Positions 21,628-32,524 of a stretch of DNA of 32,524 nucleotides are shown here, one piece after another. Positions within the stretch are counted from its first letter, which is position 1, and each line of letters begins with the position of its first letter. The notes under the pieces are model-generated. The model searched no databases. It saw nothing but the letters and a program-made list of their open reading frames with translations, and was not told the DNA's origin. Both the position numbers and the translations under genes were made by a program. Origin of the DNA: Nitrososphaerota archaeon. Lineage in GTDB: Archaea; Thermoproteota; Bathyarchaeia; Bathyarchaeales; Bathycorpusculaceae. Where the stretch lies: positions 1 to 32,524 of the forward strand of contig JAISPR010000062.1 in assembly GCA_031274765.1 (NCBI GenBank). Direction: 5' to 3'.

Positions 21628-21705
21628 GGGCCGGTAGCTCAGCACGGCTGGAGCGTTCGACTGATAATCGAAAGGTCGCCGGTTCAAATCCGGCTCGGCC
21701 CACCA
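21628..21705 (+). tRNA. tRNA-Ile (anticodon GAT), CCA encoded
   Basis: All arms can be folded by eye. The acceptor stem is GGGCCGG with TCGGCCC. The D stem is GCTC/GAGC with a GG-containing loop. The anticodon stem is TTCGA/TCGAA around the loop CTGATAA, with GAT at 21663-21665. The variable loop is AGGTC. The T stem is GCCGG/CCGGC around TTCAAAT. Discriminator A at 21702 is followed by a genome-encoded CCA. There is no intron at the canonical site. A strong hairpin and a decayed dinD-like gene follow directly, as often seen where elements have integrated next to tRNA genes. Confidence 0.97.
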
Positions 21706-27219: not shown

Positions 27220-27285
27220 GTTTTTCGTTTAAAGAGTATTATGTCAGAGATATTAAAATTTGCACTGTTTGGTTTTATTGCTAGG

Positions 27286-27313
27286 GTGCCAGATGGTTTG
27301 TTCTATCTGACAC
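27286..27313. repeat. Small hairpin upstream of the ligase gene
   Basis: GTGCCAGAT and ATCTGACAC pair with one mismatch around a ten-base loop. It lies about 70-95 bases upstream of the ligase start, beyond the TATA-like box. It may be an operator or a chance palindrome. Confidence 0.4.
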
Positions 27314-27503
27314 TTTGTGTTTTATGTTATTTTGTGTCAAACTTTTTAAAGTTAAATAGACCTTAGGCGTTATTATTTGTCGATTCTAAAACAAGTGTGC
27401 CTTGTTTAAATGATTCAAAAAACATACACTTAAAACATAACTGTCACAATAACTTGCCAACAAAACGCACGCTCTACCACTAAACACTAATAACACCCAA
27501 GGC

Positions 27504-27790
27504 CTATTGTTTATAGCACCGTTTTACTATAACAAACACTACATATGAATCATTTTGATGTAAAACACTGTCATAGCGGGAATCTGCTAAATAGTAACAT
27601 TTGCCATTTAAATCAAGTAATTTTGCGATCACAGTTGCTGATGGACCAGTAATGATGGCCATCAATAGTTTAAAGACGATGGTGTGCTGTCAACAATGGG
27701 TCTACTGCATTATTTAGCGTAGTGCATCTACCGGTGATTTCACAAAGATAAGCATTTTCCACTGCATAGATTCGGGGTGAAAACAAAGTA
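27504..27790 (-). pseudogene. Decayed reading frame, unidentified
   Basis: On the minus strand two frames read as protein-like text and join with one frameshift. First comes IYAVENAYLCEITGRC followed by TTLNNAVDPLL (about 27770-27700). Then from 27662 a frame of 52 residues beginning MAIITGPSATVIAKLL continues with LNGKCYYLADSRYDSVLHQN and ends in KRCYKQ at a TAG (27504-27506). I recognise no family. The 52-residue part alone could be a small gene, but it lacks a ribosome site. Confidence 0.35.
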
Positions 27791-27889
27791 AACAAACCAA
27801 ACCATTAACATCGTAAATGATAAGGTAATTATGAATTTGAATCTTCTACTTGCATATTCTAATTTTTTATAATCAGTCACTTTTACTTT

Positions 27890-28153
27890 TTGGTTTTACA
27901 CATTATTTGTGATAGTGATTTGATTTATTTCAAGCAATGTTTAGTGTTCCTTGTTTGGTTGCTTTTGGGATTTTGGTTTGTCAAAGAACATGCTAGATGG
28001 GCCGAGCTTTTGGAGCGGGTTATGTTTATGGGCTTTGAGATAATTTGTGAGGGATACGTGGATGAAATGCGAAAAATAAATTACAAGAATCATCCATTAG
28101 AAAAAACGTTAAGAATACATGTTATAAAAAACATTATTGTCGTCTATATGTGA
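27890..28153 (+). CDS. Possible small membrane protein
   Basis: The 87-residue frame starts at a TTG without a visible ribosome site. It has one hydrophobic helix (CLVFLVWLLLGFWFV) followed by a charged, amphipathic part (EHARWAELLERVMFMGFEII) and a basic end. Codon use is plausible, but the region around it consists of decayed frames on the other strand and I recognise no family. It may be chance. Confidence 0.28.
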   Translation: MVLHIICDSDLIYFKQCLVFLVWLLLGFWFVKEHARWAELLERVMFMGFEIICEGYVDEMRKINYKNHPLEKTLRIHVIKNIIVVYM

Positions 28154-28206
28154 AAATTCTCAAAAACAAACCAACTATTACAACGTTGAAAATAGGACAT
28201 AGCAGA

Positions 28207-28362
28207 CTATGTCTGTGATTGTGATTGTGATGTTACACCTTTCACCCCTCTAACAAAAACAAACATGTACATGATAACTTCTATCGAGATGGATGCTAAA
28301 GTGTTGCCAAGTGCTAGGTAAATCTCATACCATACTGTAGCAAGACAATAGTAAATGACACC
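28207..28362 (-). pseudogene. Fragment of a membrane protein frame
   Basis: A 51-codon open stretch on the minus strand, without a start codon at its head, reads VIYYCLATVWYEIYLALGNT then LASISIEVIMYMFVFVRG, with two hydrophobic helices, and ends at a TAG (28207-28209). It looks like the end of a lost membrane protein. No family is recognised. Confidence 0.3.
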
Positions 28363-28547
28363 CTAGGAGTTATGTGTTACACAGGAGTTTTAAATGTGGC
28401 AGGGTGGTGATACCTCTATGCTTTGTACACAAGTTACACCCGGGCAACTTTGCTCAGATCTGAACTAGCGCGATTGTCCTTTAGGTAAAAACCCTTCAAA
28501 ATAAAGAAAATGCGGGTTGTTGGGTAGTTCTGAAATTAGCGCTGTGT

Positions 28548-28824
28548 TTATATTCCATCAATTAGATGGGCGGTTCCGTCTGGACAGTAGACCTTGTCAA
28601 ACACTTCAGTTGTGCTGTAGCGTTTACGGCAAGCCTTCATTTCAGAGCATCCATCGCAGTCACGTGATAACGTTTGTTTTTCCTCCTGTGGTATGCTTGA
28701 GGCAGTTAATTACGCGTTCGACACTTAACTGAAGTACACTTCCAAGATTACCTAGATGGCGTCAAGGGGCAACATAAGCGGTTAAGCCGTATACCACATA
28801 AAACGCCGCCTGTAACTCAGAAGA
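28548..28824 (-). pseudogene. Decayed cysteine-containing protein gene
   Basis: The minus strand from 28824 reads SELQAAFYVVYGLTAYVAP, an in-frame TGA at 28762-28764 where a Gly codon would need one base change, then RHLGNLGSVLQLSVERVINC and LKHTTGGKTNVI. A frameshift near 28667 leads to SRDCDGCSEMKACRKRYSTT and EVFDKVYCPDGTAHLIDGI, ending at a TAA (28548-28550). The C-x2-C-x5-C pattern plus a fourth Cys suggests a small metal-binding domain. The 5' part is missing. I do not recognise the family; the case rests on long protein-like text in two linked frames. Confidence 0.5.
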
Positions 28825-28849
28825 CTAACAACCACAAGCGAACACACCA

Positions 28850-29460
28850 ACAACTAATACTAAAACCCCGATATAAAGATTCAGTTTATTCACTACCGCC
28901 CACCAAACCACCCGCCATAACAAACCAAAAAACAAACCAACCCCCACAAACCATATCAAAAACTAACAACCTCTACAAAAACCAAAGTTCTCCACTCACT
29001 TTCGACAAAAACACAAAACTCTAGTTCAAAATACACAAAGACCCTGATAAAAATCGTCAAAACCACAACATACAATACAGATGATGCTATGCGACCAATA
29101 ACGTTTCGTCTGTTGTTTTTGACTTTTTGCACAGTCTGAGTTTCAAACAACCCCACCACCCCACCCAGTCCAACCGCCCACAACATTTCTCCACGGCACC
29201 AAACCCAAAACCTATCAACAAACTACCACAAACCCAACAACACCCCACAAACAACCACCACAAAACAACACCAACTCTCAAACCAAAACAAACACCCAAC
29301 ATCACACACAAACCCCACAAATAACCACACACCCAACAACCACACACCCAACAACCAAATCACCCAAACCCTCTACCATCCACTAAACCACAAAACAACC
29401 CCTAACACCAAAAAGCCACTCCTCCCGCACAACCCTTTTATTCTAACCATCAATCAAAGA
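28850..29460. other. A/C-rich, low-complexity stretch
   Basis: The + strand consists mostly of A and C (CCAAAC, ACAACC, CCACAC words), the mirror image of the G/T-rich stretches elsewhere. A perfect 16-bp duplication, CCACACACCCAACAAC, occurs in tandem at about 29326-29357. Open frames here are artefacts of composition. It lies directly upstream of the small gene at 29511. Confidence 0.65.
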
Positions 29461-29510
29461 AATCATAAACCCCTCAATACACATCAAACCACCTCAAACG
29501 GCGATATAAG

Positions 29511-29873
29511 TTGACAACACACAAACATGAAATCAAAAAAACTCATGTAAAATTTGTAGAATTCGACGACGTAATATTCACCAAACTAGCCACAGACAAC
29601 AACTATTTTGGCGAAGGCAACTCTGAGAACCGAACAATAGAAACTGATTTTGAATACTGTCTATACTGCAACCTCCGCCTCCTAAATGGACAACCAATAA
29701 TGACCAAAGATATCTTAGAAGATGAATTCGAAAAATACGTAACCCAGGCAAACCACAACAATTACCAAAAATCAGCAGAAACAACAGTACAGCATAGCAA
29801 TTTTGAAACACTAGAAAACCTAATCAAAACTGCATTAGCATTTGGTAAACTAAAACAACCCCAAACGGTCTAA
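29511..29873 (+). CDS. Small protein of unknown function
   Basis: This 120-residue frame starts at TTG (29511), just behind a TATA-like CGATATAAG, and has no obvious ribosome site. The protein is acidic and Asn-rich. Visible features are HVKFVEFDDVIFTKLATDNN, a CLYC pair at about residues 50-53 and a C-terminal helical part. Nothing indicates a membrane segment. No family is recognised. Its composition (A/C-rich wobble positions) follows that of the flanking DNA. Confidence 0.42.
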   Translation: MTTHKHEIKKTHVKFVEFDDVIFTKLATDNNYFGEGNSENRTIETDFEYCLYCNLRLLNGQPIMTKDILEDEFEKYVTQANHNNYQKSAETTVQHSNFETLENLIKTALAFGKLKQPQTV

Positions 29874-30237
29874 CAAACCCCTCCAGAAAAATACAGCTGC
29901 CCCAGCAACTAAAGAATGACACAAAAAAACGCAGGTATTCAACTCAAAGAAATACTACACCACATTAATCTGCAGACACAAATACACATTTCAACCATAT
30001 TTTTGAACAAAACCATGAAAAACTAAATTTCAACGAAGCTAATACTTTAAAATCTAACAACATATTGGGCAATTTGACCTAAGCAGCCAAAATTAAATTG
30101 TTCCCCAACAATATTTGAAAAATAAGAAAATTATTGTAAAAATAACTAAACTCACAACAACCTGCGATATAAATAATTCAAAGTATTTTTTCCAAACTGT
30201 CAACGTGAGTAATAACCCGCATGAACTAAATACTTAC
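29874..30237. other. Spacer between convergent genes
   Basis: The sequence is A-rich without a supported gene. A small perfect hairpin, ATTGTT-CCCC-AACAAT, lies at 30097-30112. The right edge is the A-run that forms the T-tract of the surface protein's terminator. Confidence 0.4.
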
Positions 30238-30280
30238 AAAAAAAGAAAAAGGGATGTTAAGCAAGCATTAGCCGCTTAAC
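30238..30280 (-). terminator. Hairpin and T-tract ending the surface protein gene
   Basis: On the minus strand GTTAAGC pairs with GCTTAAC (plus 30274-30280 and 30256-30262) around an 11-base loop, followed after five bases by TTTTTCTTTTTTT. The stop codon TAA is part of the left arm. This is a good candidate for transcript end. Confidence 0.6.
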
Positions 30281-32524
30281 AGCCACCCAAGACACTGTTG
30301 TTAAACACTGGGTCGCCAAACAACGGAACAATTTGGGGCTGGCATGAAATAATGTCACCTGGGAAGTTGGAACCAACCAAGTAAACAATCTCTTTCACCG
30401 CACCCGATGAGTCACCAGAGTTAGCCAACACATCTTGGAGAGCATCAGCAAATTCATCTGCATCATAACCGTCTTGAGCAACACGCATATTTTGAAGAGA
30501 AGCATCATTGTTGTGTATCAGTGCCCATACAGCCATCTGGGAAAGAACCTTAGTTGACTGCGCTACAGTAATAGGTCCAGTATTTCCCTGCCATGCATCC
30601 ACACTACCATATTTATTGTAGATATAGTTAAACGCGGCAAGGATTTTGTCGTATGTTTCTTGATCTAGTTTGCCTGCTACATAGGGTTCTGTTTCAGCAA
30701 AAGTTCTGGATGTGCCATCAGCGCAAAATGAGGTATAGGCTTTGTAATCAGCGTTAAGGGATGTCCTTGTTTCAATGTTCCAGACCTCGATTATGTAGTA
30801 GTAACCAAGGGGTACGTCAGTTAGACCAACTCGGCCCGCACTGTTAAACCAATTCCAGCTTACAAAGTAGTTAGCGTTATAATCAAAGTCTTCAATGATA
30901 TCACCGTTTTCAGAGATGGATATATAGAGAGGGACAGTATCGGCAAAAATTTCTGCGGCTGTTCCTGTGAGGGTTTCAACGATTGCATATCTGCCTGCTA
31001 AGAGGGCGGGTGTATTAAAATCTATCTTGTTATCTGTGAGTGCGCCATTTGCAACAACGTCATCATAGTTAATAGTGCCATCAGCATTCACCCGATAGAG
31101 CGTAAAGGCCATACCGGAAACAAGCTCAGCAACACTACCACCATAACCAGTTACCCATGCATCAAAAGCAAGACCGTCAACGGTCTTTGCAATGGAAAAA
31201 GAGCCTTGGGGAGGCTTTAGTTGGTTGTCAATTGCTGGTTCGCCATAGATGGGTATGATCTGGGGTTGGCAGTAGAGTAGATTGTTGGGATAGTCTGCAT
31301 CAGCTAAAAAGATAAGGTCTGTTATGGTTTGTGAACCGCTATATCCTTTGTAATTTGCAAGAACATCAGCGATGCAATTATTGATGTAGGTAAAGTCAGA
31401 GTGTGCTTCAGTTATGCCGTCGTTTAGTAGTAGCCATACGGTTATTTGTGTAATGAATTTGGTTGATTCTGTAGCAGAGGAAGTGCCAGCTGCATTGGGC
31501 CATTGATCTAAGCTCCCCCATGTATCATAGATGTAGTTGAATGCCGATATGAGGTCTGCTTTTACGCCTGGTTTTAGAGCTGCAAAGTTAGCTGTCATGT
31601 CTACATAGATATATGTTGGACCATTGTAGGTATCGCCGCCTAATTTACCTGAGCCATAGTAGCCGCAGAAAGATGAGTATGTGGTGCCATAGTTGCCAGT
31701 TGTTGGATTGTATTCTCTTGTCTGGAAATCATTGAACCAAGGATTTATCATAACAGTAGATGATGCTAAGGTGTAGGTTACTGTCAGATCAGCGGTGCCT
31801 TTGTTTCTGTAAAAGTTATCAGTGCTCCAGTACATAGCATCAGAATCAAAGTCGGTAACGCCCGCCATTTTGCCATCGGTGCCTATCCAGATGTAGAGGG
31901 GATCAATTTGTTCAAAGATATTTGCAGCTTGTCCGGTGAATGATTCAACGACAGCATATTGGCCAGCCACGAGTAGGGGAGTATCAAAGGTTATCATACC
32001 GCTATTTGCATTGAGTGCGCCATTTGCAACAACGTCATCATAGTTAATAGTGCCATCAACGTTCACCCGATAGAGCGTAAAGGCCATACCGGAAACAAGC
32101 TCAGCAACACTACCACCATAGCCGGTGGCCCATGTTTCAAAGGCAATGCCGTCAACGGTTTTGCGTATGGATCCAATGGTTCCAGGGTCAGGGTTTGCGG
32201 TGTAGTAGAATATGAATTCATTGCCAGTTGCAGACAAAATCTTTGTCAAACTTGTTGGTTCAAGGGCAGTATAACCAGCCACATTAAGGGCATGTTCAGT
32301 AACTTGAGAAGCCATTATTTGACCAGTTACAGCTTTATCTGGAGCAATCGAGGTTGAGGTGTCAACTAAATAGTAATGCACCACATACTCTAGGTCATAT
32401 TTTGGAGTGTAGTAGAAAGTGATCACATTACCAGACACACCAATATCAATAGTTGCACTTGTAGGCACTACTTGATTGTAACCCTCGATACCAATAGCAT
32501 ACTCAGTAACAGATGTCCCAAAGA
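30276..32524 (-). CDS. Giant surface protein with MucBP-like, SpaA/Cna-B-like and thioester domains (partial)
   Basis: The frame stays open to the window edge, so this is the C-terminal 748 residues of a longer protein. It begins with MucBP-like repeats ending ITFYYTP and FIFYYTANP. Two tandem modules of about 300-325 residues follow. Each starts with a SpaA/Cna-B-like segment (KTVDG; SGMAFTLYRVN; then AGQYAVVES or AGRYAIVET), whose Lys and Glu are placed as in isopeptide-forming domains. Each continues with a thioester-type (TED) segment: SSFCGYYG with FITQITVWLLL, and TSFCADGT with VLSQMAVWALI. The Cys codons are 31665-31667 and 30723-30725; the Gln codons 31446-31448 and 30537-30539. Both modules end in CQPQI(I/V)P. 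There is no membrane anchor or sorting motif; the protein ends NNSVLGGC. Covalent adhesion to host or neighbour surfaces is inferred. Confidence 0.75.
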   Translation of the reverse strand, partial: FGTSVTEYAIGIEGYNQVVPTSATIDIGVSGNVITFYYTPKYDLEYVVHYYLVDTSTSIAPDKAVTGQIMASQVTEHALNVAGYTALEPTSLTKILSATGNEFIFYYTANPDPGTIGSIRKTVDGIAFETWATGYGGSVAELVSGMAFTLYRVNVDGTINYDDVVANGALNANSGMITFDTPLLVAGQYAVVESFTGQAANIFEQIDPLYIWIGTDGKMAGVTDFDSDAMYWSTDNFYRNKGTADLTVTYTLASSTVMINPWFNDFQTREYNPTTGNYGTTYSSFCGYYGSGKLGGDTYNGPTYIYVDMTANFAALKPGVKADLISAFNYIYDTWGSLDQWPNAAGTSSATESTKFITQITVWLLLNDGITEAHSDFTYINNCIADVLANYKGYSGSQTITDLIFLADADYPNNLLYCQPQIIPIYGEPAIDNQLKPPQGSFSIAKTVDGLAFDAWVTGYGGSVAELVSGMAFTLYRVNADGTINYDDVVANGALTDNKIDFNTPALLAGRYAIVETLTGTAAEIFADTVPLYISISENGDIIEDFDYNANYFVSWNWFNSAGRVGLTDVPLGYYYIIEVWNIETRTSLNADYKAYTSFCADGTSRTFAETEPYVAGKLDQETYDKILAAFNYIYNKYGSVDAWQGNTGPITVAQSTKVLSQMAVWALIHNNDASLQNMRVAQDGYDADEFADALQDVLANSGDSSGAVKEIVYLVGSNFPGDIISCQPQIVPLFGDPVFNNSVLGGC
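31038..31145. repeat. 108-bp near-identical internal repeat, copy 1
   Basis: This segment of the surface protein gene differs from 32013-32120 at only about two positions. It encodes the conserved GYGGSVAELVSGMAFTLYRV part of the SpaA-like segment and its flanks. The remainder of the two modules is far more diverged. Confidence 0.9.
32013..32120. repeat. 108-bp near-identical internal repeat, copy 2
   Basis: Partner of 31038-31145, in the N-terminal module, same orientation and same reading frame, 975 bases apart. Confidence 0.9.

Follow-up and report, generated by a model that had tools for sequence, protein, structure and literature searches.

Internal thioesters between a Cys and a Gln that react with surface amines are found in complement C3/TEP, which have an unrelated fold and a short CGEQ motif; the modules described here are predicted to work alike and are not members of that group. 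Thioester domains (TEDs) have been described from Gram-positive bacteria exclusively (PMC4450167); in SfbI and FbaB the thioester is attacked by a Lys of the target (PMC4450167). The Gln and Trp of the TQxxW helix are dispensable for this thioester, and the bond-forming Gln is located on a later strand (Walden et al. 2015, PMC4450167; Miller et al. 2018, PMC6194298), with a Cys-Gln spacing of 129-153 in the solved class I TEDs (PMC4450167). In Cpa (Spy0125) of the Streptococcus pyogenes pilus tip, a TED is inserted in a SpaA/CnaB isopeptide domain (PMC6194298, PMC12617251); in the TED2 structure (PDB 2XID), SpaA comprises residues 291-384 plus 588-598, with Lys297, Glu347 and Asp595 (PMC12617251). 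Archaeal surface proteins with predicted self-cross-links have likewise been described, namely the CLIPPER/DUF11 isopeptide proteins (PMC12617251), which differ from the protein studied here in being CnaA-like and stalk-forming and in having no thioester. Here we describe predicted TED-type modules in an archaeon. The original prediction knew of no characterised covalently binding adhesin in this group, and among the papers searched we found none on archaeal TEDs.

The window, the whole stretch of DNA that was analysed (32,524 nucleotides), ends in a single unbroken open reading frame on the minus strand (30276-32522), where a surface protein had been proposed. It encodes 748 amino acids followed by a stop codon at 30276; the C-terminus is complete and the N-terminus is cut off by the contig edge. 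All four motifs that had been named (SSFCGYYG, TQITVW, TSFCADGT and SQMAVW) were found in the translation. The protein is composed of two MucBP-like repeats followed by two modules of about 310 residues each. The proposed SpaA character was borne out by Pfam (PF17802, E = 1.5e-6, 28.7 bits against a cut-off of 23.1), with no other Pfam match in the rest of the protein; NCBIfam gave no match either, nor did the PDB when its sequences were searched with the entire protein. The MucBP-like repeats (about two, residues 1-113, 32184-32522, minus strand) were below the cut-off of Pfam MucBP (PF06458) in the window, but the related repeats of G028:C88 passed it with 28.2 bits, and the proposed repeats are therefore kept by kinship and not by a direct Pfam match.

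Both modules, module 1 (residues ~117-434, 31221-32174) and module 2 (residues ~442-742, 30297-31199), were assigned by family alignment and AF2 models as a SpaA/CnaB domain with an inserted TED, and like all features below they are read from the minus strand. The predicted isopeptide residues of module 1 are Lys121 (32160-32162), Glu193 (31944-31946) and Asn433 (31224-31226), and those of module 2 are Lys446 (31185-31187), Glu516 (30975-30977) and Asn742 (30297-30299). For the thioesters, the predicted residues are Cys286 (SSFC, 31665-31667) and Gln419 (CQPQIIP strand, 31266-31268) in module 1, and Cys600 (TSFC, 30723-30725) and Gln728 (CQPQIVP strand, 30339-30341) in module 2. The FC motif is present in both modules, and the residues after the Cys (G-Y and A-D, respectively) match the rest of the [YFL]C-Phi-zeta pattern loosely. 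The helix motif TQxx-Phi-W is found as TQITVW in module 1 and as SQMAVW, with Ser replacing Thr, in module 2; it contains Gln359 (31446-31448) and Gln662 (30537-30539), respectively.

To place these residues in a family, 30 TED-like modules were collected from Bathyarchaeia by iterative HMM searching, and the only invariant columns among them were the Cys of the FC motif and the Gln of the TQxxW helix. A longer alignment of 23 modules included the preceding SpaA half (the first module of L075 has no SpaA half, and its signal peptide was aligned there instead). In this alignment the starting Lys did not vary, nor did the Cys, the Gln of the helix or the Gln that opens QPQ[IL]VP, and the Glu, the helix Trp and the closing Asn were each conserved in at least 90%. 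When archaeal and bacterial modules were aligned together, the Cys and the helix Gln were kept in all 40 modules, the helix Trp and the strand Gln of QPQ[IL]VP in 39 each, the Lys and the closing Asn in 37 each, and the Glu in 35, which upheld the proposed isopeptide-forming positions of Lys and Glu. In the 40-module alignment, these seven residues rank with the best-conserved positions. As read from the alignments, the conserved set is that expected for a TED combined with a CnaB isopeptide domain.

One part of the original prediction had to be corrected. It paired the Cys with the helix Gln of TQITVW or SQMAVW, but the solved TEDs form their bond with a Gln of the C-terminal strand (PMC4450167, PMC6194298), and the helix Gln was rejected as the bond former in view of the mutagenesis and structures in the literature. 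Because the solved TEDs bond through the strand Gln, the thioester pairs are likely Cys286-Gln419 and Cys600-Gln728, and Gln359 and Gln662 most likely belong to a conserved helper motif, a role taken from PMC4450167. The Cys and the strand Gln are 133 residues apart in module 1 and 128 in module 2, a predicted spacing that fits the range of the solved class I TEDs. The strand motif CQPQI is only a loose match to the published PhiQzetaPhiPhi pattern.

Membership in the TED family was examined with profiles and models. The Pfam TED profile (PF08341) gave no match when each window module was searched alone, but a module of this family from a congener (G001:C101) passed it with 26.7 bits against a cut-off of 22, and the TED profile matched 12 of the 30 Bathyarchaeia modules at E <= 1 (best 2.7e-5). 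The proposed Pfam assignment thus failed for the single window modules and held for close relatives and through a profile-profile link. For the latter, a reference TED profile was built from a Clostridia class sample (30 bona fide loci, 19 of them used). Aligned to it by hhalign, the module family scored 38.0 (probability 70.8%, E 3.8e-5), and the two profiles coincided at the Cys and at TQ..W; the maximum among 100 column shuffles was 15.7. N-terminal TEDs of the same archaeal genomes reached a probability of 94.9% against the bona fide TEDs and 96.8% against the main family, and the QP motif recurs in them (YQPL). By these profile comparisons, the N-terminal archaeal TEDs are a bridge between the main family and the Clostridia TEDs, and the homology of the module family to TEDs is supported. 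A PDB profile search gave as its two best matches a SaTIE-TED chain and a B-type Cna protein, which we take to be another TED chain, both weak (E 0.08 and 0.37).

In the AF2 models, the order of secondary structure matches that of TEDs. Module 2 was modelled with a pLDDT of 83.8 and a pTM of 0.82, and module 1 with moderate confidence (pLDDT 76.6, pTM 0.64). In the model of module 2, according to DSSP, Cys600 ends a strand (model residues 160-165) before a helical part, Gln662 and Trp666 lie in helix 222-234, Gln728 is found just ahead of, or at the start of, strand 295-300, and Asn742 lies in the last strand (304-307). In both the alignment and the model, Lys and Glu precede the TED and Asn follows directly after the Gln strand; therefore the TED sits inside the isopeptide domain, inserted ahead of the last CnaB strand as in the Cpa-type layout. 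The claim of TED-type modules inside SpaA/CnaB domains is thus sustained by the alignments together with a profile-profile homology far above the shuffles. Foldseek searches with both models gave matches to CnaB/prealbumin folds and to the pilus adhesins RrgA and SpaC, which concern the CnaB/prealbumin half only, and no TED was among the matches.

Compared with the known systems, the window protein shares with Cpa TED2 the predicted class I TED within SpaA/CnaB, with Lys and Glu before and Asp/Asn after it. It differs from Cpa in being archaeal, in having a C-terminal tandem pair of TEDs, in its closing Asn instead of Asp, in the MucBP-like repeats upstream and in having no LPXTG or sortase. 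The Gram-positive TIE pattern of an N-terminal TED, a C-terminal LPXTG and a sortase is not found, the predicted TEDs being C-terminal. With the TEDs of SfbI/FbaB, CpTIE and other TIE proteins (PF08341) the modules share [YFL]C, the TQxxW helix, a later strand Gln, matching spacing and profile-profile homology; unlike those, they are below the Pfam cut-off, use QPQ[IL]VP as the strand motif and have no fibronectin-binding repeats. The class II TEDs (BaTIE, SaTIE and EfmTIE86) gave the best, though weak, PDB profile matches, but the window modules lack the beta-sandwich insert of about 75 residues before the Gln strand, and their spacing is class I-like.

A TED fold could also exist without a live thioester, the Cys being structural (in a disulfide or as a metal ligand) and the binding non-covalent. 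A second Cys adjoins the strand Gln in each window module (CQPQ), the typical subfamily of these TEDs has four invariant Cys (A4 columns C74, C90, C191 and C204) with CAH and CExH motifs, and Foldseek returned no TED, all of which would suit such a reading. The adjoining Cys, however, is replaced in relatives (HQPQ in two module 2 orthologues; QQRQ or AQP elsewhere) and the TED Cys is kept in every module of the 40; moreover, the strand Gln is kept in all but one, although neither a disulfide nor a metal site would require it. We therefore consider a structural Cys unlikely. A disulfide with the neighbouring Cys in particular was rejected on account of the replacement of that Cys in the orthologues. 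The set of four Cys with CAH and CExH, which may form disulfides or a metal site, is missing from the window modules.

We propose, with a probability of about 0.7, that the gene product is a surface protein secreted by Candidatus Bathycorpusculum with two Cpa-like modules, each combining a self-locking isopeptide bond with a reactive thioester, and that it most likely binds a surface encountered in the termite hindgut. The SpaA/CnaB domain would lock itself through an isopeptide bond between Lys and Asn that Glu catalyses, and the TED Cys (286 and 600) and the strand Gln (419 and 728) would be joined in an internal, buried thioester. On the model of SfbI and FbaB, an amine of the target, for example a Lys side chain, would open the thioester and leave the Gln carbonyl amide-bonded to the target, and the cell would then be irreversibly fixed. 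The two TEDs would provide two attachment points. The target in the hindgut could be the gut wall, the gut lining, material in the gut or a partner organism's cell; since washout is a reason for attachment in the gut (Loh et al., PMC7886697), covalent attachment could help the archaeon to resist it. The analysis establishes the module family, the conservation of the two sets of cross-link residues, the homology to TEDs, the archaeal origin and a distribution in keeping with termite guts, and we infer the bond formation, the reactivity, the target and the biological role. The gene family may thus offer a concrete attachment mechanism for termite-gut archaea, and it adds predicted amine-reactive protein domains to study.

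The protein belongs to a Candidatus Bathycorpusculum archaeon (Bathyarchaeia) whose lineage consists of MAGs from termite guts; the genus was described from higher termites, with members from soil, sediment and digesters too (PMC10684969). The source genome is a draft MAG of 2.5 Mb in 170 contigs, the gene lies at a contig edge, and its best-known relatives are Gram-positive, as would be expected if the gene were bacterial and the contig chimeric or misbinned. Against such an origin, the contig encodes a DNA ligase of the ATP-dependent type, together with an XPB-type helicase, and the codon usage of the TED gene (r 0.78) is inside the range of its archaeal neighbour genes (0.65-0.88). Orthologues were found in two other Bathycorpusculum MAGs, many relatives of the protein occur in its own genome and in congeners, and the module family was detected in 10 of 257 Bathyarchaeia genomes, all ten in this genus. 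The bacterial relatives have a GC content near that of the contigs on which they lie, and LPXTG-type signals, present in some of them, are missing from the archaeal ones. In addition, a contig of 1,488,669 bp, from a genome that shares its class with a Methanomassiliicoccaceae MAG, encodes a protein of 952 aa whose TED is 39% identical to that of module 2, which argues that archaeal carriage is not a binning artefact. The archaeal host that had been supposed is thus supported, and a chimeric or misbinned contig is extremely improbable; contamination was rejected on the codon usage, the congeners and the chromosome-sized archaeal contig. On a 1.49-Mb archaeal contig of this class, a TED protein with an N-terminal module was noted at L172/L174 (G910:C1:476000-488000). 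In the window, a 3-kb stretch that separates the DNA ligase from the TED gene (27220-30275, GC 37%) is nearly without plausible genes and includes an A/C-rich, repeat-like part at about 28880-29360, and a tRNA-Ile (gat) is located at 21628-21705.

The distribution of the family was scanned over 84,980 species with two peptide patterns, by which more distant members may be missed. The scan gave 27 loci, every one in a MAG with a termite-type host code; the codes were confirmed as termites in 22 of the 27 (Lab, Emb, Nt and Th) and not in the other five (codes including Coa324, Cus372, Ast373 and Nl494). Besides Bathyarchaeia, the carriers as binned are Bacillota/Clostridiales, Peptococcaceae, Oscillospiraceae, Coriobacteriia, Dehalococcoidia, Synergistaceae, Treponema and, as a second archaeal lineage, Methanomassiliicoccaceae. 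This distribution fits termite guts. No relative was found among the plasmids and viral contigs searched. In the tree, archaeal and bacterial modules were intermixed and many branches were poorly supported; after removal of five long branches, the AU test rejected a single archaeal clade (p 0.006). The gene family may thus point to gene exchange between domains of life inside one animal gut. More broadly, and with somewhat less than even confidence, termite guts may hold a habitat-specific pool of reactive TED modules passed between archaea (Bathyarchaeia and Methanomassiliicoccaceae) and several bacterial phyla, to which each domain of life would add its own export and anchoring signals, and with which archaea would fix themselves irreversibly to the gut or to organisms living in it.

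A live thioester could also act on a target other than the termite, such as another microbial cell, a protist, a food-derived protein or the cell's own surface layer. The modules are common to microbes of many phyla, and a class II TED adhesin of Bacillus subtilis is reported to be required for efficient conjugation, i.e. cell-cell contact (PMC8092201). The habitat restriction, on the other hand, fits a termite-specific target, but it would also fit a termite-specific community. We give a non-termite target a distinctly lower probability than the reading proposed above.

As for export, an orthologue (G002:C26) has an ordinary signal peptide, and by kinship to it the window protein is predicted to be a secreted surface protein. 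At the C-terminus of the window protein, no LPXTG and no recognisable anchoring signal were found, and a search of nine genomes detected no sortase; a C-terminal sortase anchor was not found. The protein's own genome has an archaeosortase (TIGR04178), but the window protein is without a recognisable C-terminal signal. The archaeal family members have neither sortase nor LPXTG, and three bacterial ones end in LPQTG, LPRTG and MPQTG signals. Most archaeal TED proteins have a lipobox-like VxGCFA in the signal peptide (Ser or Thr in two), with such N-termini in L063, L064, L067, L068, L071, L073, L075, L079, L082, L083 and L085; the motif possibly reflects lipid anchoring or merely a conserved hydrophobic core, and it is missing from the orthologue of the window protein. 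The C-terminal residue of the window protein, Cys748 (30279-30281), is conserved in the two orthologues (..NNC*, ..NSC*); a C-terminal Cys of this kind, placed directly behind the last module, was noted in the window protein, L065 and L073 (NNSVLGGC, NNVLNNC, NNISNSC). Long short-period repeats (YERTVQDF, DVYAQDFY), which may be stalks, follow the TED in L066, L068 and L083. Finally, another TED-like family of archaea, distinct from the first and marked by AYCM..., QxAIWxL and a Big_1-like part, was observed in L084 (4792-5892, G029), L078 (7014-8069, G025) and L167 (1012-1905, G458). It occurs in several genera of the archaeal family, some members exceed the Pfam TED cut-off, and its C-terminal VPESPIG/VPELPLG-TM-basic tail resembles an archaeosortase PEF-type signal.
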